Positions 1 to 55,114 of a DNA stretch of 64,000 nt are shown here, one piece after another. The stretch comes from Odiellus spinosus (Eukaryota; Arthropoda; Arachnida; Opiliones; Phalangiidae): NCBI GenBank assembly GCA_963920705.1, contig OY987230.1, forward strand, positions 16,889,320 through 16,953,319, written 5' to 3'. A model generated the notes under the pieces. That model made no database searches, was not told the origin of the DNA, and saw only the letters and a list, made by a program, of their open reading frames with translations. Position numbers and translations under genes: made by a program. The first letter of the stretch is position 1. Every line of letters starts with the position of its first letter.

Positions 1-975
1 TGAATTATACTAACCCTAGTTTCTCACCCATTCTACGCGTACGAGTTTCGCGTCCTTTTGTGATAAAATACAAAATTGTTTTGCATTCTTAATTCTACCT
101 AAATGGCTCCCTTCCGATCAGGAAAAGTCGGAATGATCTCGTATAATTACAGCTACCAATTTGCCGTTTTTGACGCTGGAATAATTTTAAACTTTTCATA
201 ACGAAATAATTTTAAGAAAACAAAAAAAAAAAATCTATCAAATTAAAATACAAATTGGATTATTAGATGTTGGCTCTTTGCGCCAACGATTTTTCTATTT
301 CAAAACTTAATATTCCTCTGTATGGCTGGTGGTGGTTTATATTTTTGTATACTTGTCTGATTCATTTGTTAAATGTGAATTCAATTAATGTCACAGCAGA
401 TTTAGTTAAAGCTTTCGAATGGAACGGACCTTTATCTTTAGGTATCAGAATGATAAGATGGTTCTGACAGTTTTTGATTAATTTATCCGTTAAGTTTAAT
501 TTCAAATTAATGAATATATATATATATAGAGAACGTATAAATCTTTAATTAAGATGAAAATTAACGAGCAATCGTTACGAATCAAATTTGAAAGCTTAAT
601 TAATCTGCTGTATTTAATGCGAAACATTTTTGGTTTCATAAACGTTTTATTTATCAGCTCTCAATTGCGAATTAAAACATTTATACCAACTTAAATATTT
701 CGCTGTGAATGTTGGAAGTTAAAGAAACGTTTTTTAAACGTCTAAACGTTTGTAGTTTATTGAAAACCTGTAGCAGACGACTATATTGTTTTTAAATTTG
801 GCGTACCTTGTCCCGTTACCGTTTATAAAATATTTCTTAAGCTTCTAAAATATTTATCACGTGACGTGATGAAAAAGTGTGATTACGTGATTGTGCGTTT
901 GTGTGGTGTTAAAACGGAGTTTTTCCCCCCAAAATCCATTATCCCGTGTTGCGTCAATTAAACGCAAAATCGTAG
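1..975. other. Left edge, likely intron of the receptor gene
   Basis: AT-rich sequence with a short TA run near 515-527. I looked for an upstream exon with the cysteine pattern of type I receptor N-termini and a phase-2 end, and saw none. The 66-residue open frame at 267-467 has no recognisable domain. Confidence 0.5.
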
Positions 976-1130
976 GTGTTTTCCGAAGAAAGATTTACTT
1001 CCGCCGGAACAACCGATATTCTGTCAGCATTCGGAACATCGTCATACAAATTTCGTCATCAAATGCTGTTCGGGTTACGATTATTGTAACCGTGACTTAT
1101 CACCTACCTTAGCCCCTCCTATAACCCCAG
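976..1130 (+). CDS. Receptor alternative extracellular exon A
   Basis: This exon encodes the second half of the three-finger ligand-binding domain. It opens after an AG at 974-975 as g|TGT and closes before GTAAGT at 1131, so it begins one base before a codon boundary and ends with one base of the next codon. Length is 155 nt (2 mod 3). Cysteine pattern is C-x14-C-x13-CC-x5-C, ending [16 protein letters not shown]. The upstream frame is closed by a TAA just before the acceptor. The tract before the acceptor is weak, although a C/T run lies about 50 bases further up. It is homologous to exon B and has identical phases. Confidence 0.85.
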
Positions 1131-4100
1131 GTAAGTGGACAACGAAAACTTTCCTCTTCTAGTATTATTCACACTTTTTTCCTTTTTTTTTTTTTTCGTT
1201 TTTTTTTTCTCCTTACCTCCTTTCTTTTTTTCCTTCTACATCCCCAAAAATCCTTCTACATTTCCGATAAACCCCATCTTCGTTACCAATTCCTATCACC
1301 TCAAAAATTGTTGCGAACATTTGCCTTCTTATTTATTTTATATATTTAATTTTCGTTTTTATTTTTTTGTTTATAATTGGCTTATCATTTAATATTATTT
1401 TAATCGGTTGCGTTCGTAAACGGAATATAACGGATACGCGAATCATTAATAAACGCGCTTATAATTAAATACACATACCCTTATCCGTCTTCGTTTATAC
1501 CGAGATAAAATTCCTTCCTTTCCTCACATCCCAAAAATCTTGGATGTTTATTAACTTTCCCATTTTCCGAAAAATAAAATTAACACCTTAAATTTTTTCA
1601 TTTCAAAAATGACTTCGAAAAAAAAAAAAAAAAAAAAACTTTTGTCTTTGTTTAAATTGTTTTCGTTAAACCAACGTGTTTCCTTCAAATATCATCTGTT
1701 TCGAATTTCTTTCACCTTTTCCTGGATTTCTTTTCCTTAATTCCGCAACTTTGACACCCATTTTTCTTAATCTCCCCTTGACACGCCTCTTACCTTGATC
1801 CCGCCCCTTTGACACGTCTTTTCCTTGATCCCGTCCTTTTGACACGCCTTTTCCCTGATGCCTGTCACTCTGACACGCCTTTTCCCTGGTCACAACACTC
1901 TTGACACGCCTTTTCCCTGATCCACGTCACTTTGACACGCCTTTCCCTGATCCACGTCACTTTGACACGCCTTTTCCATGGTCCCGTCCCTCTGACACGC
2001 CTTTTCCTTGGTACCGCCCCTTTGGAACGACCCCTTTGTATAAAACATGGACGAACAGGTGTTTGGACAAGGAAAAGTATTTACCACCAGATAGTCCGTT
2101 CTGGTGCAAAAAATCCAGGTCCGCAAGCGAAAGCAAAATGGAAATAGAATGCTGTGACTCTCCTGACTTTTGCAACCGAGACCTCCGCCCTACACTGCCC
2201 CCTGCCACCCAGGAGACAGGTGGGTTGAACCTGACAAGGAGTCCTGGAGAGAGAGAAAGAGAGAGAGATGATATGTTGAGATATCAGTTTTTAAAAAACC
2301 TTTTTTTTTTTTTCTGGGAAGGATTGAGACGTATTGTCTTAATTATTTATTTTGTTTGTTTAGGATAGTTTATTAGCTACGTAGATTATAAAGATTTTTA
2401 TAAATTTAAGGGAGAGTGTTTTAATTGGGTTTCGAAAAGTCGCCTCGTTTTCCGATGAGCTTCGTATCGAATTTTAACACGTATTCCATCGACTTAATGA
2501 ACAAATATGGATGTATGGATGCGCGATTTAGCTCATTGGTGAACGTGGCGTTTTAGTATTTAATAATAAGACGTAGTAGTAATTGGTACCCATTGGTAGC
2601 AGTTATCATTCAATACTTTCATCTATTAACAACACAAAAACGAAGCTGGTTTTGCCTGAAAAACTAACGCTCTGGCGCTTTTTATGTTAAGCCTTTTTTT
2701 TTATTTTTTGTCTGATCTGGTTTGGTTTCAACAGAAGCGGATGAGTTACATGAAGTACACTAAGGTGAAACATCGTTTTTAACAAAATATTCGGAAACTC
2801 AAGTAAATTCCAAACCCCCTTAGCCCACGAAACTTTTCCGTTCGCCATGGTTGTGATATAAAAATTCACAAGAGCGTCGTAAGCCAATAAGAGAACGGAT
2901 AACGCTGGGAGTCCGGGCCTCGGCAAAGCTCGAATTTTATGCCCATAGAATGGGATATATAACCAAAGATTCTACCATGAGAACTTCAATATTTTCCTGG
3001 CTACTTCGAGTAACTCAATCGGTTCTGGTTTTATAAATTAAGAGTGAAGTTTGTGATTAATTTAGCTTGGCTTTTTTTCCAATATATTTTTAGTAGTAAA
3101 ACCCAGCTTTTTGTAGATAATAATCTGGCTGTGGCTGTTAATTTATTATAATTATTAGATGAGTGTCCCGTTAATTTTTATTTTAATTTTTGTTGGATAG
3201 TCTATCCACCCAAGGTCTCCCTCTCCTATCCCTGTCATGGCTCATCCCACCTATGAAAGAAAAGCCTAATGAAGTAGAAGTTCAAAATTGATATGATATT
3301 AAATCGTTGGGGGTGACACTCATAATTCTGGCGTACACCTGAGTTTTTTGACTTCAGCCTTAAAAATGAGTTCTAACTCTTATTATGACAGTGCCCGTAT
3401 TCCGCAAAATATTTTCTCACGACCCCCTTAATCCTGATTCATTAGTGTTCAGTTGAGACATAATTCTCCTATGCTTTCTAATAAGCGGTGACGTATTTGA
3501 TCTAAGAGCTGTGATAGGTTGACCAGAAATATTGTCGTAAATGGCAGGAAATGACGTCTTATTTCTGACCAATCACAGACCTTAGGGAAAATACGTCATC
3601 GCCAATTACAAAAGCATATAGGGCGATTAGAGGCTAACGAATCAGACAGCTTATTGGAAAGGGGGTCTTGCGGAATACACGCACTGGTGCAGTGAGTGCG
3701 AATAGTTCAAACATTTTGTACACCGGAAGTTCAACGTGTATTAAATAGACGTTTTTATAATTAATTTTTGAACTTAGTCAACTTGTTAAAGTTATTCAAA
3801 GTTACTGGTAACGCGTAAACAAAAGATAGGTTTACTGACACTCTGCAGGTGTCCAGAGACAGTTAAATTTTATATAACTTTCTATTTTAATTTTCTTTTT
3901 AAATTTTTTAAAGTTAGAATTTTTTTTTATTTTAAATTTATGCATATAATGAAAAATATAAAAATGGGACTCCTTGGTCGGATTGAGAGAATCGGCTTTT
4001 ATGATAATTTTTTTTTTTTTTTTTTTTTCATATATTTTAATCTCCTAGATGAATAGAAACGAGATATATAGATCCGAATATTTTTTTATCGAAAGTACAT

Positions 4101-7100
4101 TCGGAAAGATAAATTTTATTCTCAGACCTAAAAAAGTTGATTCTCACCCCTTATACTGTCTGTCTCCACCCCAATTTGAATATAAAAATTTGTTCGCATT
4201 AGATCAATTTAAATTTAAATTAAAATTTTAATACATCGATCTTAAAATTAATGAAATGAAATCAAGCTTATATAATTTAATAAGATTAAGTTAATTTTTA
4301 TAATTATATTAGTGGGGTAAACCCTAAATACTCCTAAAAGAAATTTAAATTTAATTCTATAACCCATAATGCGAACGAATTTTGATTTGTTTTATCAATC
4401 TAATAAATGTTTACGCAAATTAATCTCTTCCCTTCAAAATAATATCCTTTCTTATCCTAATTGCCATTGTCTTACTGCTTTTATACATAATTTTGTTTTT
4501 TAACTTGTTGAATGCTTTATTTAACCCCATATTTTTTGATTGAAAAATCGTCTGCTAATTTTTATCCCTTTACTTATGTTTATGTTTAAGCCTACTTTTT
4601 AGTTTTTCCCTTGAAATATATCTTTGCCTTTTCATTCGATTACGTACCGTTAAAAAGGAATTGACATGGTCTATACACGATCTGCAAAACTAATGGAATT
4701 TGAAAATGGGTCCAAAAAGTCAGGGAATTTAAAAATGACCTCAAAAGGTCAGGGAAAAATGGTTGTTGCCTGAGAAATTGGTTTTCCAAATGTTGTTAGA
4801 ACCCTGAATGAAGACTAGAGGAAGGCATAGAGAAAGAGATAGGTTTAAAGACGTCATTAACCGCCTTTCTTACCGACTTCCAATTTTGTTGCCTATAAGC
4901 CGTACACTAGAACAATAGATAGTTCAGATCTTAAGATTTATTTTTATCTTATAGCTGTAAATTTTTATACAAAAGCTTATTGTATACTTTTTAAAATGAA
5001 TATAGGATTATTGAGAGAGAGAGAGAGACGTGACTTCGTGCTAAGCCTGCACTGATATAATTAGAATATTAATTGGCAGCCATCCATTGGCGTAACAAAT
5101 GGGTGTCTACTTGATTCTTAGAATCTTGTTAGCCACGCCTACTTCAATGTTAGTGTCAAACTTTTGCGAAATTAAGAAAAGTACAAAACTTAGTATCTAC
5201 GGGTTTGATTCTTTGGCGGAAATTGACAAGACAACACGAGCAGACGACTTAATGAAGATCCAGGGAGCGTGTACACGCCCCAAATAAAAACTCCACTTAC
5301 AACTCATCTTAGCTGAAGAAAATAATATACAATTGTATCCTCGTACACTATTTTTATCCCTTATGAGGTTTAGCATTATGTGTGAATCCGCCTTACCGTT
5401 TGCTAGTACGCGATTTTTAAAAAAAAGGGAAAAAAGAAGACCCTACAGCGAATCGAGAAGCCAATAATGGATAAAAACATCTCGCCATCTCAGCAATATT
5501 GGCAGATTTATCTATTCTTCTCCAGTCCCCGGCAATCTCGAGAGTTATTGGAGGTTATAGGGTTAGGCCTAAGATTTAGGCTTAAGGTTTCAATGAAAAA
5601 TCAACTTCCGCGTTGCCAGAATTGATCTTTTACGAAGTCAGTATCGGTTTTCATTTGCAACGGACAAAAATAGTGGAAGGAGACTTAGTAGAGCGTCAGG
5701 ATGGCTGCCAAATAAACATCATTCTCTAGTTTTTCCTTTAGTGCCACTTTATGAAAGTTGAATTGAACTGCAGACTCTCGTCCCCAAATATCATAACCCT
5801 TTACCAAAATCGAAGGCGTGTTTTCAAATGCATTTTTAATCATCGGGATAGTTCAACTATGATCAGAATCAAACTAAAATGTCGGCACGAACAAATCAAG
5901 GTTTCCCTTTATCGCTTGTTTGAACTTTTTAGTAGAGAAAAAAGTGGACTTAGTTATCTTCTCGCTGTTTACTGCGATTGATTTTGGATATATGATTATT
6001 ATAGGTTATATGGGTGACTCTGGGCCCAGCTTTTTAAGAAACGCGCCTCTGTGTATATGTCGATCCGAGTGAAAAGGCAATCAATCTCTTACTATATAAA
6101 CCCCTTTATTAGAGTTAGGCTTAGCGAAAGTTTTTCGTTTAGTCATATCAGAATCCAATTTAGCGCGTGCGAAGCAAGTTTCCACTCTTATCTCATTGAC
6201 ACGGTGTCTTGGAAATAGCAGAGAGCTCGGGTTTCTACCCACTGAAATACACCATTGAAATTTCTAATGTAGGGAAAAAACACACACACACAAAAACGCA
6301 TTCATTCTAGCCATAACGCGAGAGTAATTAAAAAAAAAAAAAAAAAAAGGGTTAGTCTTATGAAAATTTTCGATTTTGGGCCAACAAGTTTTTATCGAGA
6401 ACTTTGAAATTAGACCCCACTCGTCAAAATACGGAATTAATTAATGTTTAAAGTTAATTAAATTAAATTTTAACTTGTTTTGCGATCTTGAAGTCACAAG
6501 AAATATTTAATAGACCGATTTTGGAATAATTAGACTTATTTTAAAGTTTAAAAATCATCTCTATTAAAATCTTGAGGCTTATCCCCAAAACTTTTAAATC
6601 TAGGTTTATCAGAAAATGATTATACTTTTATCCCATCCGTTCTATATTTTTTTCGCCTTATTTTAAAAAACTTTACAGTTTTCTATATTTTTTATAAATT
6701 TCTTATTTCCAAATTTTATTTTCTATCCCAAAGAAAATCCTTTTCACCCTCTCTCTAAATCTTATTTTCAATACTTATAATTTGATTTATTTATTTTTGT
6801 TTACTCGTTTCATTGGTTCTAAGTTGAAGTTGTTTTTTAATTTTTATGAAAGATCCGGATACGTAGGTTATAATTATATAAACAAGTTTTTAGATTTAAT
6901 TTGCTTCGAAAAATGAAAAATTCAATCATTTCGGCTTCACGGTTTAACCTCCCAATTACGTAGTGAATTAATCTTTGCTCTTACCAGTTAAAGGGATTGT
7001 GAAAGAGAGTTTTTTAAAGCATTATATGAACTCAAAAAAGGTCTAGTAAAGTATTCGCGAATCAAAAGGGGAGTAGAAGTCTTTTTATAAAATTTAGCTA

Positions 7101-8065
7101 AGCCTAATTTGAGTGTTCTTGTTTTCGTAATAATATTATGATTGTCATAACGAAGAGGGACTTGGCCACCTCTTTGCTTTTAAAATGACAAAAACCGGAC
7201 GGCGCGAGGCATTCATATTTTGCGAACAAATTTGCTAGGCCTAATTTTAGAATTTTAGGGTTAGGATAGCACTTAAAAAGTAGTCACGTGTAACATTGAT
7301 TACATTTTAGGGTAGAGATGAATTAGCTTACTTTTTTCACTATCCCTTGATATTACGCGTATTTAAACCCAGTGGAAATTTCATCTTACAGAAGTTCAAA
7401 GAAATATGATGGACGTATCTTTAATAAAAGGTTAAAAAAACTTCAACTTTTCGCAATTACTCAAGCTAAAATTATTAAAGTAATTTTTCAAAATTTGCCG
7501 AGTGATTATCTAGTAAAATTGAGTGTTTGACTAGACCTCACGAATGAACCAGGAATTAATTTAAATTACGCGAGATATTTTTCATGTTTTATTTACACGC
7601 TTTTGCGCCGTTGCTTCAAGTGTTAAGCGAAAACTGGCTGTAGGTCGTAGGTCAAAACTGAATTACTTATTAGCCAATCGGAGACTGAGAATCTAAATCT
7701 AGATTTATAAATTAAGAATAACTCCTTTATTGCGGGAGCCAATTGTAACAGGTTTCGGTAAAAGGCTTATTTCATCAATATACTTAAAATTAATCAGCCT
7801 TTTGCGTGTACCTCGAATTTTTTATTTAATAATTAATCAATTTCAATGAGTGTGCCGTACAGTTATTCCAGGCGATTTTTGGCTTTTTTTGCTCCTAAAT
7901 CACCTCATTCCGCCGAATATAATGGCTATCTTCGGGTAAGTCATTATGCTTACTTCGCTTCATTCGTTGCTTTGCGGGAAAATTAAATCCTACCGTATTT
8001 TACTTCACTTTCGGAGATTCGTAATTTGGACGTTTGTTTTACAGGAAACGAGTGGGGTGATTTCT

Positions 8066-8100
<35 letters not shown>

Positions 8101-11100
8101 CAATATAAATATTTATACCTGGTTATAGAAAAAAAAAGCTAGAAATTCTTGGAAATAATCACGTTGGCCATTTATTGAATGTAACTTTTTTTTTTTTGGT
8201 TTTTATTCGTTTTATGTTTCAATTTCAATTTGGGTTGAATCAAATAGTTCGAATTTACGCTTCAAGTGTAATCTAATATTGCCGGAAGTTAGGCTTAACA
8301 CGGAAGATTTTCAACTGTTTCATTGTCTGCTTCGTCGTCTCTATGAATATAAAATGTTAAGTGAGAGTTAAGCCTAATATCAGTTTATTTGAAAATGGTG
8401 GAGAAAATTAGGCTTAACTTGGCTTAAAGTTCTTATCCGTTTAAGCGTTATGTCACTTAGTTCCGAAAGATTATTTTCGAGTTTGAAACTGCCGCGTTTC
8501 TTAGACCCGAAATTTGGCAAAATACAAACACCCAATCTGTTAAGCCTAACTGAATCTAAATATCGAACTATAAATTCAACCCTAGTTCTTTTAAGCTCAA
8601 CTGTTATTAGATTCTGATTTTTTTTTTCTCTTTTTCTTCTTTATTTTTCATTTTTGTTCCCTACCCCGGTTTCCACGGTCAGCAGTAACTTTTTTAAAAG
8701 ATGCCACCTCGAGTCCGATGGGGACGGTAGAATTGGCCGTCTTGATCGCCGGTCCCATTTGTTTAATTTGCATCATCATCATGGTTGCCATCTCTTTCTG
8801 GCAACAGAAGCAACGGTTGCGTCGTTACAGACGCCAAGTGGAGATCAGCAGCATGGAGAGTGCCGAACCTATCATCCCATCCGGTCAGTCCATCAAGGAC
8901 ATGATGGAACTTACGACTTCCGGTTCCGGGTCCGGGTTGCCCTTGTTGGTGCAACGTAGTATAGCTCGACAAATCAACTTAATAGAGGTCATAGGTCGCG
9001 GGCGTTTCGGCGAAGTGTGGCGCGGACGATGGAGGGGCGAATCGGTCGCGGTCAAGATCTTTTCGTCACGCGAAGAGAGGTCCTGGTTTCGGGAAGTGGA
9101 AATCTACCAGACCGTCATGTTGAGACACGATAACATCTTGGGATTCATCGCCGCTGATAATAAAGGTAATAACTATTGTCTCCGATGGGAAAGGTTACTC
9201 GCGACCCGTGGAAACCGTTGTTCGATCATGTTATCAGAAACTGATTCTGGGAATCAGAGCAGTTGACGTTAACACCGAGTAAAATCAAAACATTTTATTG
9301 GTACTAGCGAAATACGCATTTACTAGCGATAAATTACGCGGATTAATACGCAATTTTAAATCTTAAGTTTAAAAATAGCTTTTGCTAACTGGTTTTGAGC
9401 GGAAGGAAGTATAGTAACCTTTTCCGAAAACGAAAAATTTATCTCATTTAAATCTCCTAAATTCCGCGTCGCTTTTTTGCACCCCCGCTTCGGAAAATCG
9501 TTAATATTTCGGCCTAAGACTATATCTAGAACGACTAAGATTTCCGCTTAACGATATTACAATGCAAATTTCTGCACAAACCATCGTTTAGCACCAATCT
9601 TAATCGAAACTCGTTGTTAATCTAGCTCCAATTTTTTTATATAGTCAGAATGCGGTCGAAATGATTAAAGATCTTCAATTCTATATTTAATTATGATTAT
9701 TATTTTCCATTCATTTCTTGATGAACTAACGTGGCATTTTACGTGGGAAAATCCTATTAGGCTTTCCTCTGTCTATATGATACCGTAAGTTTATAACGCA
9801 CTATCCATAAGTATGAAACTTTCTGGACACAAAATTCTCTCACTTTAGAATATACTGTTCGCCTTTTAACCCGCTTCATTTACAAAAATCTAAACTCCGA
9901 ATTAAAAATAAAAATTTAGTCTTTACGAGAGCTTGTCTGTGTTTTAAAGAGAGGATTATAAGGGGAATAAGACTAGTTTTCATATTAAAACATTCAGGAA
10001 ATTGCACAAAAGCTTCATATTTTGGCATTCACCAGAAAAAAGAACCTTCGACGAATCAAAATCCGCCCCTACTTTGGCAAAATAAAATCGCGAATATTTT
10101 TAAGACGGAAAGTATTTTATTAGTTTACCTTTCAATTAAATGTCAATATCGCGAGATTTTACGAAGTTGATCGTGATTTCGAATAGCTCGGATCAGACTT
10201 ACGGAAAATACGTTATAGACTTACTACGCTGCGCCCCAGCAGGTTGCTTTCGTCTCTCTCTATCGCGGGAAATGATTTCTAGTTAATCGGAGCTTAATAA
10301 CCTAATGCGCACTCCCCAATGCCTCTTCCGCCGTATTTTTTCAACGAACAACGCAGAGTTGTATTATACAATGTGCGAGGCGTTGGTAATTGCAGATAAC
10401 GGTACGTGGACGCAGTTATGGTTGATTACGGACTACCACGAGAACGGCTCGCTTTTCGACTATTTGACCCGTTGCACGGTGACGACGCAGGGTATGTGCA
10501 AGATGGCCTACTCGATCGCCAACGGGCTGTCTCACTTGCACATGGAGATCTTGGGGACGCAAGGCAAACCGGCCATCGCTCACCGCGACTTCAAGAGCAA
10601 GAACATCTTGGTGAAGAACAACGGCACTTGCGCTATCGCCGACTTGGGTTTGGCCGTCCGATACGATTCCGCCACCAACACGGTGGATATCCCTCCCACC
10701 GCCCGAGTAGGAACCAAACGTTACCTGGCCCCCGAAGTCCTCGACGACTCCATCAATAGCACCCATTTCGATTCCTTCAAAAGAGCCGATATCTACGCCT
10801 TTGGTCTCATTCTCTGGGAGATTGGCAGAAGATGCAACGTCGGAGGTCAGTAACGACACTTTTCTTAGCTCTTTCTAATACAAGCTTAAATAAATCCGTT
10901 AAGTCGTCTATAGACAACTCCGCGCTAGTCGAGTTAAATGGATTTTAATCTAGCCGCGATCAGATGACTAAAAAGGGAGTCTTTCGATACGTGGGGCCAC
11001 ATTTTACAGTTTTGTCATCGCCAAAATTATAACCCATCAAAACCAAGGCCGTGTTTAGAGACGGAACGGTGATACCTAAGCGATCTCGAAAGAAACCGAG

Positions 11101-14100
11101 CGAATAGGCTATTTGAGTTGATCCTTTCGGTACGACAGTACTAACCAGAAATGAATATTTTGGTAGCTTACGTCATTGAATGCGGTCCAAGTAGACAACA
11201 AATGTAAGCCTACTCTTCTACTATTTGCAAACCTTTAGCGCAGACCCGTAGAGCGATAAAATCAGGGAGACAAAGCTTCAACACGTTACTGTACCGAAAC
11301 TTTTGGTCGTGTTGTTATTGATTGCTCCACTGACCAAAAGTAAAAGTTTCCAGTTATAATGGCTATAAGAAAATACCCGTTCCTAATATTTTCAGATGGA
11401 GATATGAGTATAAAGTCAGGTTTGTTTTTATAAAAAGTTTTTTGACAGTGTTTATCGTTGTCGTCGCTATTCTTCAGGGGTCGGGGAAACTCTAGAACAC
11501 TGATATCATCTAAAAGACAATCATTGTCGCGTAGTCCATCCGATAATATCCGAATTATCAATCCCAGGAGTTCGTCCCCAAAATCCAGGGTTTAAAAACT
11601 GAAGTCCTTATTCGTATCAGAAATTCATTTATAAATATGGAAGAACATTGGACAGGCTTTAGTGAATGCGCGTTAAGGTCCACTGTCCTTCTGAAAGGGG
11701 ATTGGAAAGATGAGGCGGATCTTATATTCCTTAGGCAAAACCGGGGTCGCAACTATGTCAACCAGTTATATTTTTCCCACTCCCCTCGGCAACATTAATT
11801 CAAAAGAAATTTAGGTAAAGTAAAGGCAACAAATCAAATATTCTTTATCTATTTATATTTGAATTCCTGTTCGTAGCAAATTCGCATTTATATGACGAAA
11901 GTAACAAATTCGAGCTTACGTAACTTGAATTTTAAAAAGACTAGTGTTTTTTATATATATGCTAAGATTAGAAAATCTACTGTTCTATATTAGAATTTTT
12001 GAAGCAAGAAAGATAAACCGGGAAAGGTGGATTTGTTCGGTGTTCATTTTCTTTACCTGTTTCCCCTCATTGCCGAATGTTTGTTCTAGATAATATGAGG
12101 CTGATTGATAAACAATGTTAAGCTTGATATAGCAGAAAGTAGTCCGTGCAAACTCCTCTCAACACGAATATATTCGATCAAAAAAGTTGAATAAAGAATT
12201 ATGTGGGAGCTTAGGGAATTTGGCAATGTCTATATGCCGATCGAAATTCAAAACCCAAATCTCTTTCAGAATACAAATAGATTGAATTAATTCTAAACGA
12301 GAGGGAAAAGCAATGCTTTTTTGATATTATTAACTCTCTCGCTATGTATAAGAAAGTATAATACATCTTCTTGCCTTTTGAAAAATCTGATTTGGGAAAT
12401 CATCCGGCTATTCTGGCGTGACCTCGTTTCAGTTCAAGACTAATACTGCCGCCAATCTTGATTTTCTAAACGAGTAAACACGGCCGGGAATCTTCCACGC
12501 GTTCGCCTCGCTATACTAGATATATAAGCATTCTAATAAAGGGTTGAGGTAGAGATTTAGGACAAATTTGACCTACTTAATACCTTGATACAATCAGATG
12601 CAATTTATTCGGGTATGAACAACAAGCATGGATAAAAGTTACCCCTTTTCCATTATGACACAGGGTTGCCACGCAACCCGAAATACCTGGAAAAATTACT
12701 GAATTTCAAAATTGGCTTCAAAGGTTGGGGAATTGGAAAATTGTGTTTAATGGTCAGAATTTGAATTTAGTTCAAAGGTCAAAGGATATTAAAATTGGGT
12801 TAAAAAGTCAAGGATAAGATTAAAATTGGATTAAAAAATCAAGGATATGATTAAAATATTAAACTTGGGTTTAAAGTACGGAAAGATACATATATTAGGT
12901 TTCCACGGGTCAGGGAACGCAGGGTTGCCACGCAACCCGAAATACCTGGAAAAATTACTGAATTTCAAAATTGGCTTCAAAGGTTGGGGAATTGGAAAAT
13001 TGTGTTTAATGGTCAGAATTTGAATTTAGTTCAAAGATCAAAGAATATTAAAATTGGGTTAAAAAGTCAAGGATAAGATTAAAATTGGATTAAAAAATCA
13101 AGGATATGATTAAAATATTAAACTTGGGTTTAATGTACGGAAAGATACATATATTAGGTTTCCACGGGTCAGGGAACGCTTAGAAAAGTCAAGGAAATTG
13201 GGCCAAAAGGTCAGCGTATTTAATAATGGCGCCAAAAGGTCTAGGAATTTGCAATCCTTCTAAATGAAGTCGTGGAAAAACTATCAGGGAAAATGGTCAA
13301 AGATGGTCTGTGAAAGCCTGGAAAAGTCAGGGAATTCAAAATGCCAAGTTTTGTAGCAACACTGTATATATATTTTGAAAATTGGATTAAAACATTTAGG
13401 ATAAATCTGGAAAAGTTAGCGGCAACCCTCCATTGTGTACGCTTGAAATCATACCCGAGTAAACATGCCCTGCTTTGATTAAATCCCGCTTCTAAAGCTT
13501 CCTTCGCGAGAAAGTCCAAATTTTCGTTTAAGATATTTCAATCAACACAATGATGTTCTAGGCCTATAAGTAGGAAAGATAAAAAATTGATTTTCGTAGG
13601 TCTTTATATTAGATTTACACTTCGAAACTTTGTATACGTATATAGGCCTATAATAAATCAATTTGATCAAACTCGAGCAGACTCTAGTTTCGGAATATAT
13701 TTTATATTACCCTTTCGCGAGTAATTGATGGCGAAATATGATTCGATAATGATGGATGGATATATCTCTCTATACTAATAGGAATCTACGAGGAATATCA
13801 GCTACCTTATTACGATCAGGTGCCTTCCGATCCTACAATAGAAGATATGCGCAAAGTCGTTTGCGTCGATAGAAGCAGGCCACCTTTACCCAATAGATGG
13901 CAAGCTTGCGAGGTATGCGCTTTTTGTTTCTAATTCATTATTAATTTAAATTAATATTAAAATACATATTGTGGATAAAATGAGTTTTATTACCAATATA
14001 TCAATAAGTTTAAGATAAACATAAAGTTTGAGTCCCAGAGGCCAGAAAATCGGCGTAATCAGTGTACAGGCTGTACCTTTGACTGTACTAAAGCGATTAC

Positions 14101-14587
14101 GCGTAATCTTTAAAATCCATGCATTTGACAGTGCTAAAATAATCACCCGTAATCCGTAATCGATGTACAGTGAATACAAGAATTATTAGCCCCTCGTTAA
14201 TTTGAGACCTTATTTAATTTCGCAAGGTGACCACATTTTCTAAGTTTAATTTTCATATCCTTTCAAGGTGTTCCTATAATTTCGACAGGCTCTTTTTTAA
14301 ATATTAGAATTATTTCTTATATTATCTTTATATTCAAGAAATATATTTAAATTATAATTAGTCCAATTCCATATCATTTGTGCATGTTAAATGCTAAGCT
14401 CACAAAGTTATACGCTCGCCACACTAACAAGTTTCTTTATCTTCGTTATTTAAAGGCACTTAGGGTCATGTCCAAAATCATGAAAGAGTGCTGGTATCAA
14501 AACGCAGCGGCTAGGTTGACCGCTTTGAGAATCAAAAAAACAATAGCTAATTTAGGCGCTCAAGAAGACATTAAAATGTCCATTTGA
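976..14587 (+). CDS. TGF-beta/activin type I receptor (ALK4/5/7, baboon-like), 5' end missing
   Basis: This is a transmembrane Ser/Thr kinase receptor that phosphorylates Smad2/3-type R-Smads after type II receptor activation. Coding exons: alternative 976-1130 or 2059-2219, then about 8683-9165, 10396-10845, 13782-13912 and 14456-14587 (stop TGA). Phases agree at each junction. In order the protein shows the end of the ligand-binding domain (CC-x5-CN), a membrane segment ([20 protein letters not shown]), the GS box [10 protein letters not shown], the glycine loop [11 protein letters not shown], the catalytic Lys in VAVKIF, the HRD loop, ADLGLAV (DFG position) and YLAPEVLDD. The L45 loop reads [11 protein letters not shown], which is the activin/TGF-beta class and not the BMP class. 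HRDFKSKN replaces the usual HRDLKSKN. The signal peptide and first extracellular exon are not visible and probably lie upstream of the window. Family assignment is very secure; orthology to baboon specifically is inference. Confidence 0.95.
1780..2030. repeat. 30-31 bp minisatellite, about 9 copies
   Basis: The core GACACGCCTTTTCC recurs at about 1780, 1811, 1841, 1872, 1903, 1934, 1964 and 1994, with a degenerate copy at about 2024. Spacing is 30 or 31 bases. Units are rich in C and T on the plus strand and run almost up to the acceptor of exon B, so they form an unusually long split pyrimidine region there. Confidence 0.9.
2059..2219 (+). CDS. Receptor alternative extracellular exon B
   Basis: This is a second version of the same ligand-binding half-domain, 161 nt long (2 mod 3). 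It opens after CAG as g|TGT and ends before GTGGGT at 2220. Cysteine pattern is C-x14-C-x14-CC-x5-C, ending [16 protein letters not shown]. Both phases match exon A, so either exon can join the membrane-segment exon, but using both or neither shifts the frame. A 30-31 bp pyrimidine-rich minisatellite ends a few tens of bases before its acceptor, and a GA-rich run follows at about 2249-2269. It could be an inactive duplicate, but all cysteines are intact. Confidence 0.87.
3389..3686. mobile_element. Palindromic foldback element (MITE-like), about 298 bp
   Basis: The ends are inverted copies: CAGTGCCCGTATTCCGC on the left and GCGGAATACACGCACTG on the right. Inner arms also match, for example GGTGACGTATTT on the left against the complement of AAATACGTCATCGCC on the right, and the flanks of GACCCCCTT against AAGGGGGTC. 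Arms are imperfect. No coding capacity and no clear target-site duplication seen. Confidence 0.75.
8069..8099. repeat. TA microsatellite
   Basis: Alternating A and T for about 30 bases within the large receptor intron. Confidence 0.9.
8681..8701 (+). promoter_or_regulatory. NAGNAG acceptor of the membrane-segment exon
   Basis: A pyrimidine-rich tract at about 8618-8670 leads to TCAGCAG (acceptors after 8682 and 8685), with a further AAAAG ending at 8700. All three keep the reading frame, so the mature receptor could vary by one or six residues just before the membrane segment. The long tract favours the first two. Which is used cannot be told from sequence. Confidence 0.6.
9166..10395. other. 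Receptor intron between glycine-loop and catalytic exons
   Basis: Donor GTAATA at 9166, acceptor TTGCAG ending at 10395. AT-rich; I see no repeats or exons in it. Confidence 0.75.
10846..13781. other. Receptor intron containing a tandem duplication
   Basis: Donor GTCAGT at 10846 and acceptor AATAG ending at 13781. The minus-strand open frames in 11286-11752 and 13241-13519 show no domain. The main content is the 259-bp duplication at 12661-13178, followed by more degenerate AAAAGGTC-type repeats to about 13420. Confidence 0.75.
12661..13178. repeat. Tandem duplication, 2 x 259 bp
   Basis: CAGGGTTGCCACGCAACCCG starts at 12661 and again at 12920, and the following 239 bases are near identical, with only a few substitutions (for example GGTCAAAGG versus GATCAAAGA). 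Each unit contains shorter degenerate repeats of the form AAAATTGGNTTAAAAAGTCAAGG. The high identity implies a recent duplication. Confidence 0.92.
13913..14455. other. Last receptor intron
   Basis: Donor GTATGC at 13913, acceptor AAAG ending at 14455. Contains a small cluster of CGTAATC-type words at about 14050-14165; nothing else seen. Confidence 0.75.
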
Positions 14588-17500: not shown

Positions 17501-19437
17501 AATTACACAATTTAGCCTACTTTTTTTTTTTTTAAATAAAAATTGTTAAGTTTTTAAAACTATGATTATATTTGTTTTACATACAGTTCGGATTATAGGC
17601 GTATTGTTAAAAACTTTCATCATCAAATATAATGAAGAAAAAAAACTAAGATTTAAAAGTATTTAACAGGTAATTCTGTACTTAAGAAGGAACCATCCGA
17701 ATTACCTATGCGGGTTTATTAATTTAAATAATCATTAATTAAATCTTTGTTTTTTCACTGATTTTTTAACGAATTTAAAAATATTCGCAATTTTTTTTAT
17801 TAATTTTTAGTGCCTTTTTTATTCCCCCAAAAACGTTATGAAAATTAGAAATAAAATCGGGAAAAGTTAATTGCGAATTAAATTTTGCATTATCTTAATT
17901 TTGTGGTTGAAGGTACTGTGTAAAGTAAAACTTAAATACTGGGAAAAACGCATTCATCTTTTTGAAGAAAAAAGAAACAGAAAACTACTGTTATCATTCA
18001 TGTTGATATCATCTTATAGTTAAGCCTAAATCCCCCTGTCCTATGTCCCATATAACAAAAACTTTACATCACTGTTTTGTCAAGTACAAAAAATGAAAAA
18101 AACCAACCTATTTGTTGCATAATTTTTTTTTTTCTTTTAAAGCCGTGTAAGCTATAATGTGGCATTAAAAAAAATAATAAACTGTCATAATTATCATTTT
18201 TCAGTGGCTGAAAATCCATTCGTCTGCAGAAACTCCACGAAAAGCTTTTTTTTTTTTTTTAAGCCTTTGTCACCGAGTTCTTAATTATGCGTTTTCGGGG
18301 ACTTTCTCCGAACTTTTTAGTTTGAATTAATTCATAAACTTTTAATTAAGTTTCGCCCCGTCTTTAATTTATTGTTTTTCCCTGTTTCCTTTATAACCGT
18401 GAATATCAGGAAAATAGTTTTTAGTTGTAGGCTTAAAGCAAAATGGCCACCAAATTATGGACTCAAGGTTTTGTGCTTCTTTTTATGTTATTTCCACGCT
18501 ATTTATTTACCGTGTCTACAGTCTATGGATGGATAATAAAAGAAACGCACTTTTTATATATATAAAGTACGAGGTAATAATAATAAAAATATAATAAGAG
18601 AGTTGGGTCTGGTAATTTTCGTAAGATTTTTTTATTATTTTTTTTTTTTTTTTCATTGCAGATTCTTTGTCTAGGGTTTTTATTTTTGGTATTAGCAAAT
18701 GTTGGATTACGTTCAAATCTTCTGACTGGCTCGATACAGAAACGCAATTTATCAGAATACTAGGTTTAATTAATCAAACTGGACGAGACGATTAGTATGC
18801 GTAAAGAATTGACCCTAAAAATACCAACTACAAACTACCAAGTTCTTTGCTGATTCTTAGCTTTATCATTTCAAAATCTTGTTTAGGTAGGCCTTGGTCG
18901 AGGCCCGAAAAGAACATTCTTTGTTCTTTTTCTGTTAGAATAAGAAATATTTCTTAAAAATTCCAGACCTAATAATAGTTATGATTAACAGAAGAGACTG
19001 AAAAATCTGACCTCTGCTTTTTGGAGGAGTAAGAAAAGATCTACTTAGAAGAACTTAAAAGTTTTGGCAAGACTGTTTTATTTATTTTATCAGTGGTTAT
19101 TAATGGGTTTTTGGGGGAGGGAGGATTTCAGTCTTTAGGTGGTCTGGAATTTTTTTCATTCAAAGAAAAGGTCTAAAGTAGGCCTATGCTAAAAAGTAAA
19201 ATTTTAAATTTAGCGCCTGTTATTAGTTTCATGACCTGTCGATTGAGGCGCTCTCTAATTACATTTTTTTTGACAAGAGAATATTTTTCAGGGCAGTCTG
19301 CTAATAGTCATGGATCTGGAAGGGCGAATTTCGTCGTTCAAGTTTCCTTTTATTAAACTCAAATTTTAGTTTAGTTCATTTAATTAAAAGTTTATATATT
19401 ACTCAATTACTAGTTAATAAACCAAATAAGTACAAAA
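14588..19437. other. Intergenic region, receptor to TSC1
   Basis: Strongly AT-rich with long A and T runs (for example about 17352-17377) and a C run near 16253. A short repeat of about 20 bp based on AACGTTTCCAACGCG recurs four times at about 16776-16855. No convincing coding frame: the open frames near 15487 and 18516 are lysine, phenylalanine or isoleucine runs. The last part should hold the TSC1 promoter and 5' UTR. Confidence 0.6.
14605..14610 (+). terminator. Poly(A) signal of the receptor gene
   Basis: AATAAA 18 nt after the receptor stop codon. Position is plausible, but the region is so A-rich that a chance match is possible. Confidence 0.45.
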
Positions 19438-32678: not shown

Positions 32679-33394
32679 TTTAGCGAACTGAAACTGTACA
32701 AAACTAAAAGAAAAACGGCGGCTACTTGTTCGCGACGTTTTTCCCGGTTGTTTTGTTACATAATTGTCACTTTCTCTCAAGCCGCGTCAAAAAGGTAAAC
32801 AAACTGCGGCCATTTTTAGAATTTAAATTTTTTTCAAAGTTCGCCATTTGGAGGCGCTGAATGCGTACCATAATAATAATAAGCCCATGCTTTCAAATAT
32901 TTTTCCGCCAGTCCTTCGGAAGTTCGGACTTATTAATTAATTCAAATATTTATTAATTTGTAGATTGTAATATTTTTTTAGAAATATCGTAAGGGGACTT
33001 CTAATTAAACATTAGTTTTTCGAGGCCCATGAAAAAAAAATATTTCTAGTCCTGGCCTGATTTACCAATTAGGTGTCGTCTGCTTTCGGTATTATGGCTT
33101 TGAGGTGTACAGTTGTCAGATTTTCACTGGCCGGTTTAGATTTTTAACACGTTGACCTACTTTTCTATTCCTTTATTTAATTTGACCGTACATGAAACTA
33201 AAATTATAGAAAAGTAAACCTTAAAATGTTTCAAACTGGTTGTATACGAAATTATTTAAACCATTTTTTTAATTCCATTTCGAAATTAAGCCTTGGCTGA
33301 ATCTCCTTGGCGGCTTGGCCAGCTAACCGAGCAAACCATAAGATATTATATTTTTGTAGTACGTGTGATATAATCAATTAAACATTGTTAAAAT
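32679..33394. promoter_or_regulatory. Shared upstream region of SMG7 and SLC35E1
   Basis: The start codons of the two divergent genes are 716 bp apart, so both promoters must lie here or overlap. I see no clear TATA box. The part next to SMG7 (about 32720-32820) is the most GC-rich. A bidirectional promoter is inference. Confidence 0.5.
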
Positions 33395-36300
33395 ATGGAT
33401 AGCGCCTCCGAAAAAGCAGCGTTTAGGAAAGAAGTCTTAAAAATATTTGGTCTATGTGTTATTTGGTATACATGTAGTTCTGGTAATGGCGTAGTTGGAA
33501 AAACAATTTTAAATGACTTTCCTTACCCACTGACGCTAACTCTATGCCAATTGATTACCGTTACCTTTTTATCTGGACCATTGTTTTATGTCTGGAGAAT
33601 TCGCCCCAAAAGCGAAATTCCCTGGCAGTATTTTGTTAAAATGTTGATACCTTTAGCCCTTGGTAAATTAATAGCATCAGTTTCTTCGCACATTAGTATA
33701 TGGAAAGTACCAGTTTCGTACGCTCATACCGGTGAGTTTGTTAATTTATTATAGTGTTAATTTTTAAGCCTAAAAAAATATTAATTTACCCCACAGTTAA
33801 GGCTACTATGCCTCTGTTTACCGTTATCCTATCAAGAATTATAACGAGGGAAGTTCAAACTACAAAGGTAAGGATTATTCCTCTTTTTCATTGGCAAAAA
33901 ATAAATAACTCTTTCTTTTTAGGTTTATTTATCATTAGTTCCAATTATGGTTGGAGTTTTGATTTCCACCACCACTGAACTCTCGTTTGACCTGGTGGGC
34001 TTAATCAGTGCCTTAGCAGCCACGGCAGGGTTTTCTTTACAACATATTTTCTCTAAAAAAGTAAATAATTGTTTTATTAATTGAGGGGAAAACAAATCTG
34101 ACTTAATTAGCTTAAAATTATGATTTTTTTTATCTTTATTGGCAGGTTTTACAGGAAGCTGGAATTCATCATCTCTGGCTACTTTATACTTTAGCCAAGA
34201 TAGCATTGATTATGTGTCTTCCCGTTTGGCTCTTGTTCGATGTCAGAAAAATGATGAATGATACTAATTTAGTAAGTATTCCTTTTTCGTAACCAAAAAT
34301 CATATTTTATTTAGATAATCAAGTTGGTTGGGGTTATTATGATGGTTCCACAACCAGTTTTAATTTTTTTTTATATAATTATGGTAAAACCTTGTTATAA
34401 TATCTCTTACTATAACAAAAAGAACAATTTTTAAAAATCTTTACCATAAAAAACAAATTCATCGAATTTGGTTATACCAAATTATCACTTAGAAAAGGGC
34501 TAAAAGAAAATTTCACCCCTCTTACCCAACTTTGCATTCATTGCAGGGTTTTGCCAAGAGCTTGTGAGCGCAGTTGAGAACAGATCAGTTACGAAACTGA
34601 ACTGTTAGTCTTTCTCTCTACTTCAGTTTGCGCTCACAAGTGGCTGGCTAAACTTGGGGGAATGTCATTTACCCACTTCAATGAAAACTATGTATTGTAC
34701 TTATGATAATACTGATGTCATAAGTCATGTTGAGGTGTTCAAAAAGCTCACTTGATATCGTATGTTTAGAATGTATGAGAAAATATAATTACTCTAATTC
34801 AGTGATAACAAATTTTTAAATTCTAAACTTCTTATTTTTAATTTTATTTACAAACAAATATTCTTCATTTTGATTTTTGAAAATGGCCAACTTGGATCAT
34901 CTCCTCCTCCTGGACACGTGATGGAGAGCTGCTCTAAGTTGGCCATCTCTAGATCTAGAGCAACGCCTCCTATATTTTATCAGAGTGGGTGAGTGGTCTA
35001 CTCTAGACTCTAGAGAGAGCCGCTTTTGTTCTGTGTTTAAAAAGTATAATTAAATCTTATTAATTATAAAGGGGATTAATAAGTTTGATTTAAAAAGGTA
35101 ATTTTATACTTAAAAAATTACTAAATTAGCTTTATTTAGTGTTTAAAAGTTAAGACAAAATGGTTGAACCTGTTAAGCCTAGGCTTAAATTGAATACTGA
35201 ATTTCTGAAATAGCATGGCCAAGGCCAAACGGTCCAAAGTTCCAAACCATGATCCATGCTTTAATTATGGAAATAGTCAAGCCTTGGCTCTTAAATTATG
35301 GAAATATTAAGCCTTGGCTCCTTAATTATTGAAAATTTTGATGCTATAATTTTGTTTTTAGTATTTTATAGTCTATGATTCTAATTAACTTTACTTCTTT
35401 TCTCGCTCTCTCTCTACAGTTACAAAATACGGATCCCTTCATGGTGTTATTTCTGCTGGCAGTTGATGGCTTCCTAAATTTCATTCAAAACGTCATTGCA
35501 TTTAGCGTCTTGTCCCTGGTTTCACCGCTTACTTACTCAGTGTGCAGTACAACCAAAAGGATTTTGGTCATCACTGTCTCATTGTTATTTATGAAGAATC
35601 CAATCACTCTCTCCAATTTCTTTGGAATGCTTCTGGCAATTTTCGGCGTGGGACTTTATAACAAGGTAACCAGCGAGTTTTGATTCTTATTTGTTACGCT
35701 TTGGTGCATGGATGTTAGCATTCGTAGATTATATGAACTTGTAGTTCACTTAAATATCAGGAAAATAGGTTTTTGGCATAGAAAAATTATTATATCATTT
35801 ATTCTTGATAAAAATAATTCTTTAAGGAATATTTCATTGATAACATTCCTGAATGGTCACTGAAAAATCATTGTTTTTAGGTGGGAAAAATACCATTTAG
35901 GAAATGTAAATTTAATACCGCCACTAGTTTGAAAGTTTAATCTATCCCACGCAATCATAATATCATGATCACATGGGAATGTCATTGTAAAATCGTGATC
36001 AAATAGGAATGTCATTACAAAATTGTGATCAAATTCCGAATTTCATTGCAAAATCGTGATTAGATAAGAATGGCATTACACAATCGTGATTATTATTCTT
36101 ATACCCACTTCAGTTAATTGAAATTATCTGGAGACTGTGATACCTCATGTTTTTCAATTGTGGGAATTGGAAAATGGTTTTTACAATGCTAGTCTTAACC
36201 GAATCACGTGTACTACAATTATTCTACTGTGGTCAATTCCAATTAGTGTTTTTCAATTGTGGGGTTTGGAAAATGGTTTCACACAAACCCGGAATATCAG

Positions 36301-37521: not shown

Positions 37522-39447
37522 CCAAGGTCAGAAGGTAGTTGTAAAAACGTCCCAAGGTCAGAAAGTTGTAAAAATGTACCAAGGTCAGAAAGTTGTAAAA
37601 AAGTACCAAGGTCAGAAAGTTTTAAATAAAAGTCCTAAGGTCAAGATTAAGGTCAAGAAGTTGTTAAATCAAACTCCCCAAGGTCAGAAAGCTCTAAAAA
37701 GGTCTTAAGGTCTTGAAACATTTTTCAGATCGAAAATAATAAAATAGTTAATAATGGTTTTGTTCTTAATTAATGATCATTTAAAACAGCAGGAAAGTTT
37801 CCTAAAATAATTATTGGTATATTTTGATTTAATTGTACTCAAAGCTTTTTTTGCGTGTTTTATCAAATTAGATCAGTTACCTCTAAATAGACTTAAAATG
37901 TTTAAAGGAACAAAGTTGTTTTAAAATACTCATATTTCGATGAATTTTAACTCTTATTTTATTATTAATTAGTCAATTTTGCCATGTTTGATATATTTTT
38001 TATGGCTAACTTCGGTTCATACTAAATCTATTGTTAACCAAAAATGGTATAATTTCACGAAACTTCAAATTTTAAAAAACTTAATTTATTCTCATTGTAT
38101 TTTTCATAAACGTTTTTTGCATACGTAATTTATTAATGCAAATTGATTTCAAAATAGTAGAAATTTAAAAATATTTATTAGCGTTACGAATTAAGGCTTT
38201 AAAATGATCAATTATATACATAAAAATAATAATTAGAGCCCCTTTTGGCTCGCAATTATATTTTTCTTGCGAAATATCAAACATTTAGATCTTTTTTTAT
38301 TTTCTTCTTTGCTACATGTCTTCCACGCGCGTTTAAATATTTGAAATTTTAAGAATCTCAAGTAAGCTTATATTTTTCAAATGTCCCAAATTTCTTTTGG
38401 TCCCTTTCCTCTAATTTTAAGTTTATTTGAAAGAAAATAAACAATGACAAATTTAAGTTTTGATAAAAAGTATATTTTTCAGAGATTGTTAATTTTTTCA
38501 AAAAAGGAAATAACTTAATCCCCCATTCCAAATTATAAAATATAAGCAGACAACGTTTTAGGCAAGCAGCAGGAAACCTTTAAAAAATCAGATTTTGAAG
38601 GGAGTATAAGCCAAAACGAAAAATCGTCTGCTATCGCGTAAATTTCTTGACGTAAATTGCACCTATTTTAAAGAACATTTGTTAAACATAGTGGCCAGAA
38701 TGTCAAGCTACACCTTCCACTTTAGGCCCCTGAACTTTTATTCTCCTTAGGCCCATAAAGTGAATAGAATCCCCCAAATTATCGGAAAAGCCCAAGGTTT
38801 CTATAGAATTTACTAATATAAAGCCATATAGGTGAGTTACGAAGTTACCGCCCCTTTTTTCCTAAACTTGTTCCGTCAAGTATGGACAGCGGCGTACCGA
38901 CCGTTAGTGTCAACCACTGACAAAGACCTTCAGGCAACACATCGCGACTCTCTTCAACGTTTGCGAACCCCACTTTTCTCTGCTAATTTTATCGCTGGTT
39001 AGAATAATAGAACTAATACACCTACACCAAATTAACGTATCGCATTCATACGTAGAAAGTTAGCCACCTTTCCCGCAGACTACAGCAATTTGTCAGAGTA
39101 TTCCGACACAAAGGGGTCAAAATTTCCTGCCGAAACACACCCACTTATTTATATGGATCTGGGGGAATATACTTCTTGTACTTCGTACTCGTATATTTAA
39201 GACCTACATAGGATTATGGTAGGGGAAGTAAAAAAACGCGCGAAATATTATAAATCATTAGCACGTGGTCGTTCCGGTAGCCGATGCCATTGACCGTTAA
39301 GCCGAGAGAGATCGAGCGCTCTCTCGCAGTTGAAAGCCTCGGAGTCGCGAGACTCTTACAGCAGCTGTATAATATATACACCGGTGTTTTGTTGTCTCTA
39401 CTTTTCCCTCACGATAATCGTCGAGAGATACTAAAACGGTTAAAAGC
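37180..39447. other. Intergenic region with AAGGTCAGAAAG minisatellite
   Basis: From about 37440 to 37720 a degenerate unit CCCAAGGTCAGAAAGTTGTA of about 25-30 bp repeats some eight times, broken by an A run at about 37490-37519. The region close to the next gene (about 39240-39447) should be its promoter: a GAGA-rich palindrome GAGCGCTC flanked by GAGA and TCTC lies at about 39304-39327, and a TATA-like TATAATATATA about 75 nt before the ATG. Confidence 0.6.
37238..37243 (+). terminator. Poly(A) signal of SLC35E1
   Basis: AATAAA about 60 nt after the stop codon. Confidence 0.5.
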
Positions 39448-48376: not shown

Positions 48377-50189
48377 TTGATATACAAAAGAAATTATTAA
48401 AATTAATTTAAAAATTTATGCCGTTGATGTTATTCGAGATTTACAGATTTTTAATGATAAAAAAGTGGTTTGATAAATTGGATTAATTGAATTGCAATCC
48501 AGATTTTAAACTGATAAGCCCAATACACGCGTTAATCAGTGAGAGATATTCTGACTCGGATATGAAATATCGAACACGGTATTGATTCCTATATAAGCAT
48601 CATATCTTTATCTGCCATTTTTGATACAAAATTAACGTTTTAATTTTATCTTCATTAGAATCTATCTTTCTACCATAATAACCTAAAGTTATATTACTAT
48701 TATTAAAATCTATCACACTGTTTCCTGTTAATTTATAGAATATGTTAATTATTTTAATTAGACGAATAAAATTATCTTTTAAAGTTCAGTAGCAAGTTTT
48801 ACATATATATTTTTCAAAATATGAGGCTTATCTAAAACGCGTCAACCCAGAGGTATAAAATTTTGAATATGACGTTTTAATAGTATAATGTAACAAAAAA
48901 TATAATCCATAGGCATTTAAAAAAAATGGTTACAGAAGTGTAAAATTTTGAATGTTTTTAATAGTATAAAAAAAGTATTGACATTCGAAAAAAATTGGTG
49001 GTAGAATCACTTTAACAGTTAACTGGCGAATATTTCTAGCACCCCATATGTAGTCGGTGCACTCATCCGAATCTTTAGTACAAGGTGTTTTGAATCAACG
49101 CCGCCTGCTCCCTTTCTGATATCTCACTACTTTTCTAAGCTTCAAACGCGCCAGTAAAATGACATTGAACAGAAGTTTATTAAAATAAACACCTTTTGGG
49201 TGAAGTTACTTCGTAAGGTAATCTTTATACACTAAAAGTTTTCGAGGAGCATTGGGAGATATGGGAATTACATCATCAAAGAGGGCTGATCAAAGGCTAC
49301 ACATTTTTTTGTGACCAAACTCTGTTTTTCATTAAAACTCTGAAAGCGCCCCTAGTGGCAATAAAACGCAAACAATATTCTAATTCTAGCAATGTTAAAT
49401 TCGTGAAACATATTTGACTAAAAAAGTAATTAGACCTAATCCAATTAGTGTTTAGAAGAAGGGTAAAAAGGGAAACGAAGTATTTTTATAGGTTCTTCTG
49501 TTAATAATAATAATTCAATTAGAAGGAGAACCTCCTTCCAACAAAATTCTAATGTTTCACTAAAACCCGCGTATAGCTAACTTCCCATTGAAGAATTTTT
49601 AATACACTTCTGATAAAACACAATATTTAACGCTCTACTGATTTTGTTTTATACAAATTGTACTTACCATCTAGGATGAACGAAAGATGCTTGTTCCAAC
49701 CAATGAATGCAATACGTTTAAAACTAAATACGCCAAGGATCCCTTAATCTTATGTTAAAAGTTTTATATATACTTAAACTAAGAAAAATTAGGCTACTTT
49801 GATTTATTTTATACCCTAAAACGTGTGAAATGTTCTCTCACATCTGTTTCTGTAAGCTTCCAAAGTTTTAATCTTCCGAGTTCATAGTTTAAACCAAGAA
49901 CTTCGTCATATTGCATACTGTTCGTGTTTATCAAGTACCATATCTTGCCCTAAAATTAAATACAGTTGTAGTAGGCCAATCGGAGGTTTCTGTACGTACC
50001 AAAAAAAGTCCCTGTCTATGTCTTTTAGAAATATTTTATTAGCAATGTACTTCATGTTATCTCCGACTGATTAGTATAGTCTTATTTTATATCATAGGTG
50101 TTCAATGTTGTAACCTAACCATTTGGGTTATAGCTCGCTTCACGGTGAAGTTCAGATAAAATTAGAAACTACTCCCGTATATAATAGAC
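48377..50189. other. Intergenic region, ankyrin gene to UNC-93 array
   Basis: AT-rich, including the ankyrin gene 3' UTR and the promoter of the first UNC-93 copy. No repeats of note and no coding frame seen. Confidence 0.6.
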
Positions 50190-54871: not shown

Positions 54872-55114
54872 TTAAAAGCGAGTTACGGATAACTATAATA
54901 CCGCTGTCTGTATGCTCTATACCAGAGGCTGATGAGTTACTCGAAGTACACATCAACACCGGAATCCTCCTTGTTTAACCAAATAATCCTAAACCGGATG
55001 AAAGTAAACGTTAGAGCTCCCTACCTCCAAGAACATTCGTGTTTCCGCGAGATTTTTTTTAAACCCTCTCAACCTACCTAGCGTTTCAGTGTGACTCTAC
55101 AATCCTTGTTAGCC

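Follow-up and report, generated by a model that had tools for sequence, protein, structure and literature searches.

How might a single receptor gene be made to display one or the other of two ligand-binding surfaces, with both and neither excluded? The question is raised by a 64,000-nt stretch of Odiellus spinosus contig OY987230.1 (positions 16,889,320 to 16,953,319 of the forward strand; hereafter the window), which, as read from its sequence, contains the 3' part of a type I receptor gene of the baboon/ALK4-5-7 class, with a TGFBR1-class kinase. Upstream of the common exons C-F lie two homologous alternative exons, A and B, for the second half of the receptor ectodomain, and we hold this gene-and-exon reading with high confidence. 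Two layers of exclusion are proposed. The first is the reading frame; the second would be a distant branch point, suggested by an intron between A and B that is depleted of AG dinucleotides and begins with a strong pyrimidine tract. Mutually exclusive ligand-binding exons are of a known kind, represented by Drosophila baboon, and the architecture of the A-B intron is the part that goes beyond the literature found.

Two half-domain exons had been proposed in an earlier note on this DNA, and they were recovered with the exact coordinates, GT/AG splice sites and intron phases that it gave (Table 1). Exon A follows an AG at 974-975 and opens with g976 and TGT from 977, exon B follows an AG at 2057-2058 and opens with g2059 and TGT from 2060, and in both cases GT stands directly after the last base (1130 and 2219). 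Each exon is entered after the second and left after the first base of a codon, and both lengths are 2 mod 3. The translations have the cysteine pattern C-x14-C plus CC-x5-CNRDL in common and align by BLASTP with 44% identity (21/48 columns, E = 5e-14), which upholds the homology claimed for them. Each exon alone also exceeded the cut-off of the Pfam profile Activin_recp (25 bits for A and 29.6 bits for B, cut-off 20.9) and covered positions 39-78 of its 79, the C-terminal half of the ectodomain. Profile searches were run on the 1,794 six-frame open reading frames (ORFs) of at least 22 residues in the window. A profile made without A recovered A at E = 2e-12, one made without B recovered B at 7e-14, and one made from three human receptors only recovered both at about 5e-8, with the next-best match of each run well behind (E 0.08-0.13). 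The homology of A and B and their match to the receptor domain are far beyond chance. It is most improbable that one of the two is a decaying duplicate never spliced into mRNA: in each, the cysteines, the reading frame, the two phases and the GT/AG sites are intact, each matches receptor profiles on its own, and their differences are concentrated at third codon positions (21, 13 and 33 at positions 1, 2 and 3 of 47 aligned codons). Such decay would fit the pyrimidine-poor acceptors of both exons. Six-frame regular expressions and four profiles, applied to the ORFs of the window, found A and B and no third alternative exon; the best other profile match, at 18141-18281 (E 0.08-0.13), lies 3' of the stop of the gene.

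The exons were joined in silico in all four combinations. With A alone or B alone spliced to C-D-E-F, the frame stayed open up to the regular stop in exon F. The two other products are stopped prematurely because both exons are 2 mod 3: the A+B product ends in exon B, 72 nt ahead of the B/C junction, and the product with neither ends in exon C, 206 nt ahead of the C/D junction. The earlier claim of exclusivity enforced by frame was borne out by these joins. By the premature-stop rule, both wrong products are expected targets of nonsense-mediated decay. An A+B mRNA that escaped decay would encode the exon A half-domain and a short tail, lacking a membrane anchor; if the proposed mechanism holds, an anchorless ectodomain leaking out in this way could serve as a decoy.

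The 928-nt A-B intron, whose composition the earlier note does not mention, differs from the remainder of the window in its AG content. The 64 kb contains 6,596 gaps between AG dinucleotides, both strands counted, and the two longest of these AG-free runs (552 and 340 nt) belong to this intron; the 552-nt run ends at the exon B acceptor. The strictly AG-free zone before exon B measures 553 nt (1505-2057), or 885 nt if one GAG is allowed. Between 1172 and 2056, a single AG was found where 16.3 were expected (P = 5e-7, with composition and A-runs controlled). The resulting observed/expected ratio (O/E) of 0.06 was the lowest of 25,248 overlapping segments of 885 nt, taken at a step of 5 on both strands of the 64 kb (mean 1.04, standard deviation 0.14, 1st percentile 0.69). 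When plus-strand segments starting at 700-2000 were left out, the lowest printed O/E was 0.62-0.63, at starts 596-671, still overlapping the region. The ratio was 0.95-1.18 in the other four introns of the gene and 0.74 upstream of exon A, and the minus strand of 1172-2056 was normal (69 AG, 71.5 expected). At the very start of the intron (1131-1171), AG occurs at normal frequency (2 against 1.5 expected, including one that belongs to the donor). For the whole intron, plain base shuffling gave an expectation of 22.4 AG, against 2 present. The 5' end of the intron is also the site of the strongest pyrimidine tract of positions 1-9200, where the other listed pyrimidine segments score 36, 32 and 22, and this tract contains a candidate branch site, TTCAC. 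The acceptor of exon B has 29% pyrimidines at -20 to -4.

Exons with a distant branch point are characterised by an extended AG-free zone that has a pyrimidine tract close to its 5' end (PMC1431707). We infer that the branch point used by exon B, like its long pyrimidine tract, is located at the extreme 5' end of the A-B intron. It would lie about 41 nt from the exon A donor, a spacing at which U1 on the donor and U2 on the branch point could not assemble together, and A could for this reason not be spliced to B. A shared upstream exon outside the window would be joined to B when A is skipped, or to A, which would itself be spliced to C, and the common exons C-F would follow in either case. 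Since splicing normally takes the first AG that follows a branch point, AG would have been purged from the 885 nt before exon B. For the exclusion of A and B, the distant-branch-point mechanism is favoured, by a modest degree of confidence; the explanation as a whole, comprising a baboon-type gene, the frame layer and the branch-point layer, stands only just on the favourable side of even. It is the AG depletion and the tract that carry the case for a distant branch point; the TTCAC motif does not.

Several points count against a distant branch point. Every AG test was made after the feature had been seen. A plain shuffle also shows a mild AG deficit in 1-973 (30 against 48.9) and in the D-E intron (169 against 192), and within the A-B intron AA and TT are strongly raised and TA strongly lowered. 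When a minisatellite, such as the one that occupies part of the zone, was mutated at random, about 2.5% of simulations contained no AG. Exon B is not alone in having a weak acceptor, the pyrimidine content being 35% at exon A and 41% at the constitutive exon D. The TTCAC motif alone is weak evidence because YTNAY matches occur as often by chance: they number 27 per kb on the plus strand, and 1137-1240 holds 2, with about 2.8 expected. The candidate branch point would be 886 nt from the AG of exon B, beyond the 100-400 nt of mapped distant branch points (PMC1431707), and, with a branch point at 1171, the GAG at 1503-1504 should be used by the first-AG rule. In OGDH, the site at +41 is the least used (4/132 clones; PMC7969005). 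Lastly, 23 further YTNAY sites occur in 1505-2056, many in the pyrimidine-rich minisatellite; if the branch point were located there, the steric argument would fall and exclusion would be left to frame and decay.

This last point leads to an account that keeps the same gene and exons and attributes exclusivity only to the frame, the decay of wrong products and trans-acting factors acting on two weak acceptors. The branch point of exon B would then be located in the nearby minisatellite, and the AG-poor intron would reflect the repeat and pyrimidine-rich drift. The account is a real possibility, though we judge it somewhat improbable. It fits the premature stop of both wrong products and the few pyrimidines at the acceptors of both exons. 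It is also consistent with the 23 branch-like sites, located 62-531 nt from the exon B AG, and with the composition of the minisatellite, whose units (about 30 nt) mostly consist of (C/T)TGACACGCC, TTTTCC and (C/T)TGAT, so that most pair such a site with pyrimidines. The distribution of the depletion speaks against it. AG is absent from the minisatellite itself (0 against 5.7 expected, P = 0.002), but also upstream of it in 1172-1502 (0 against 5.6, P = 0.003), an observation that favours a branch point located before 1502; it is absent likewise from 1505-1729 (0 against 2.9, P = 0.046) and from the last 32 nt of the zone (0 against 2.1, P = 0.08). Taken together, the parts of the zone outside the minisatellite hold 1 AG against 10.3 expected (P = 2e-4), and the depletion is confined to the sense strand. 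A good branch-like site near an acceptor can, moreover, be passed over: at human PTB exon 11, the site at -51 is dispensable and the one at -351 is needed (PMC1431707).

Base pairing between intron RNA segments, of the docking/selector type known from Dscam, could in principle produce the same exclusion. It has a precedent in Drosophila Dscam exon 17, cited as uniting RNA structure with distant branch points (PMC7969005), and a 30-nt imperfect match between 1706-1735 and 2233-2262 would loop out exon B. In an ungapped search inside the window, however, nine of ten region pairs stayed within the maximum of 30 dinucleotide shuffles each; the tenth scored 45 against a shuffled maximum of 43 but paired poly-A with poly-T, and the 1706/2233 match, with a score of 40, fell inside the shuffled range. 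Long-range duplex folding of 6 of 21 region pairs gave values each within 2 standard deviations of 8 shuffles, a comparison that was judged uninformative, with one chained duplex per pair. Among 247 inverted-repeat pairs, the 25 listed were mostly poly-A/T or AT repeats and included no convincing docking element. We consider this explanation very unlikely. As a separate observation, the B-C intron carries an inverted repeat at 3475-3519 and 3568-3612, with arms of 45 nt that are 78% complementary and 48 nt apart.

The class of the gene was determined from its common exons. The TGF_beta_GS motif was found in the common part (E = 4e-15), adjoining a membrane segment that was read directly from the translation as a hydrophobic stretch. 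Compared with solved structures, the GS-kinase part scored 607 bits with TGFBR1, 519 with BMPR1B and 474 with ACVR1; the 34 listed chains include no ALK4 or ALK7 kinase, and the scores do not separate ALK4, ALK5 and ALK7. A 13-residue kinase stretch, the L45 region, which chooses the Smad, is identical to TGFBR1. A Smad2/3-type output would be expected of the receptor. Three acceptor candidates exist for exon C, formed by AGCAG at 8681-8685 and an AG at 8699-8700, and depending on which is used (8683, 8686 or 8701), the protein would gain or lose one or six residues immediately outside the membrane. The first two are favoured by the pyrimidine tract and by the first-AG rule; a Drosophila-like junction would favour 8701, where g|AT gives D. 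The logic of frame exclusivity is unaffected by this choice because all three acceptors keep the same frame. The window presumably starts downstream of the exons for the signal peptide and the first half of the ectodomain; neither part was recognised by eye among the 21 ORFs of at least 28 residues in 1-975, where no first-half profile was run. Scans of viral and genome contigs with the exon D kinase peptide matched 6 and 32 stretches, respectively, and tblastn gave no relative.

What the exchange of A for B would alter can be judged from human TGFBR1, in which contacts to the ligand and the type II receptor are made by the PRDRP pre-helix extension, beta5 and the C-terminal tail (PMC9163516). 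PRDRP aligns to PPEQP in exon A and to PPDSP in exon B, and the later contacts also fall within the alternative exons. By homology, the swap would replace the contact surface known for type I receptors, and the gene would yield two receptors that differ in the surface touching the ligand and share one signalling output. The earlier note had suggested one gene making two receptors with different ligand choice but the same kinase; the baboon-class gene and the swapped contact region stand, and the transcription of both forms and their choice of different ligands would be what this arrangement predicts. Among solved structures, exon B matched BMPR1B/1A best (E 2e-4 and up, against 0.24 for ALK4 and 0.44 for TGFBR1), although the common kinase is TGFBR1-class; the printed alignments are centred on the CNxxLxPTLPP end, and no functional conclusion is drawn. 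The matches of exon A were weak and mixed (BMPR1B 0.008, ALK4 0.01, TGFBR1 0.04).

Table 1. Features of the receptor gene and its A-B intron (positions within the window)
Feature	Positions	Strand	Remarks
Alternative exon A	976..1130	+	155 nt, intron phases 2 then 1; second half of receptor ectodomain
Strongest pyrimidine tract of 1-9200	1149..1245	+	5' end of A-B intron; score 62
Candidate distant branch site TTCAC	1168..1172	+	A at 1171, 41 nt after exon A; predicted
AG-depleted zone	1172..2056	+	885 nt, 1 AG against 16.3 expected
Sole AG of depleted zone	1503..1504	+	context CCGAGAT, a GAG
Minisatellite	1730..2024	+	period about 30, 9.8 copies; no AG; most units with YTGA(C/T) branch-like site and pyrimidines
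Alternative exon B	2059..2219	+	161 nt, intron phases 2 then 1; homologous to exon A
Common exon C	8683..9165	+	juxtamembrane, membrane segment, GS motif, kinase start; acceptor alternatively 8686 or 8701
Common exon D	10396..10845	+	kinase
Common exon E	13782..13912	+	kinase
Last coding exon F	14456..14587	+	stop TGA 14585-14587

Elsewhere in the window, a triose-phosphate-transporter-family protein and ankyrin-repeat ORFs were seen as neighbouring genes, at 33392-35680 and 39418-46110. Several ORFs in 50166-63998 look alike by eye and have many membrane spans, possibly forming a tandem family; one of them, at 53100-53984, had no Pfam match at E 0.01. A tRNA scan and Rfam at gathering thresholds each returned 0 hits in the window. 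The short motif TTAGGCTTA is dispersed over it, with 6 copies on the plus and 8 on the minus strand where about 0.4-0.5 per strand were expected (examples at 5576, 6115, 8289, 8408, 43865 and 63573).

If the proposed mechanism is true, the gene would switch receptor specificity by the tropomyosin/OGDH principle, at a distance from branch point to AG greater than in the mapped cases of the cited papers, and the splicing logic of vertebrate muscle and metabolic genes would extend to the ligand choice of a signalling receptor. We tentatively suggest, without giving it the better chance, that ligand choice by this activin receptor is hard-wired by one branch point and that factors bound to the tract set which activin-like ligand a cell hears. 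In the fly, the answer of a cell to a given activin-like ligand is decided by the choice of Baboon isoform, and the mechanism of babo alternative splicing was stated to be unknown in 2025 (PMC12124520). The signature of the A-B intron turns this mechanism into a testable hypothesis and can be sought in any sequenced baboon gene. Among the open-licence papers listed, no title or abstract start was found to describe isoforms of baboon in animals other than Drosophila or a distant branch point in this gene, which is not proof of absence. A tick baboon orthologue is named in PMC13174539; passages of PMC5336696 and PMC7326492 deal with ligands; the main text of a Tribolium paper contains neither 'isoform' nor 'splic', and a pea aphid paper does not contain 'babo'.

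The nearest known relative of the locus is Drosophila baboon, in which three mutually exclusive exons, 4a, 4b and 4c, give rise to BaboA, BaboB and BaboC (PMC12124520, PMC7371420, PMC11195991). The resemblance drawn in the earlier note was supported by the homologous exons with their frame exclusivity in silico, the matching 3' phase and the TGFBR1-class kinase. In both animals, a single activin-type type I receptor gene has alternative exons that alter only the extracellular ligand-binding part, and a CC-x-CN cysteine box is found in the fly exons as in A and B. The final 'g' of Drosophila exon 4 contributes to a common D (PMC12124520), and the same junction, g + AT, was seen on translating the published primers of PMC7371420; the published babo-c primer reads DQLPPE, compared with DLLPPE in exon A and KYLPPD in exon B. 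The fly has three alternatives and this window two, although more could lie upstream. Of the ectodomain, exons A and B encode just the second half.

For the intron, the closest parallels are genes in which a distant branch point takes part in mutually exclusive splicing. Drosophila Dscam exon 17 provides an arthropod precedent (as cited in PMC7969005); there, distant branch points are combined with RNA secondary structure, whereas here no intron pairing exceeded shuffles except the homopolymer match. Alpha-tropomyosin exon 3 and other such exons share the AG exclusion zone, the far-upstream branch point and the link to mutually exclusive splicing (PMC1431707). The branch point of alpha-tropomyosin was mapped at 175 nt, compared with 886 nt for the candidate here; a human exon with an AG-free zone of 1126 nt has been predicted (PMC1431707). 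A further parallel is vertebrate OGDH: in the human gene, branch points 25-41 nt after the exon 4a donor, under a steric limit of about 50 nt, enforce the exclusion of 4a and 4b, accompanied by an extended AG exclusion zone and a large pyrimidine tract (PMC7969005). OGDH is another gene with another function, and its zone is about 280 nt long, compared with 885 nt here. Both loci have duplicated exons whose combined length is not a multiple of 3, a long pyrimidine tract and a long AG exclusion zone, and in one fish, the ocean sunfish, the zone of OGDH is likewise interrupted by a GAG, which is left unused (PMC7969005). Both would also place a branch site no more than about 50 nt from the donor of the first exon, mapped in OGDH and predicted here.

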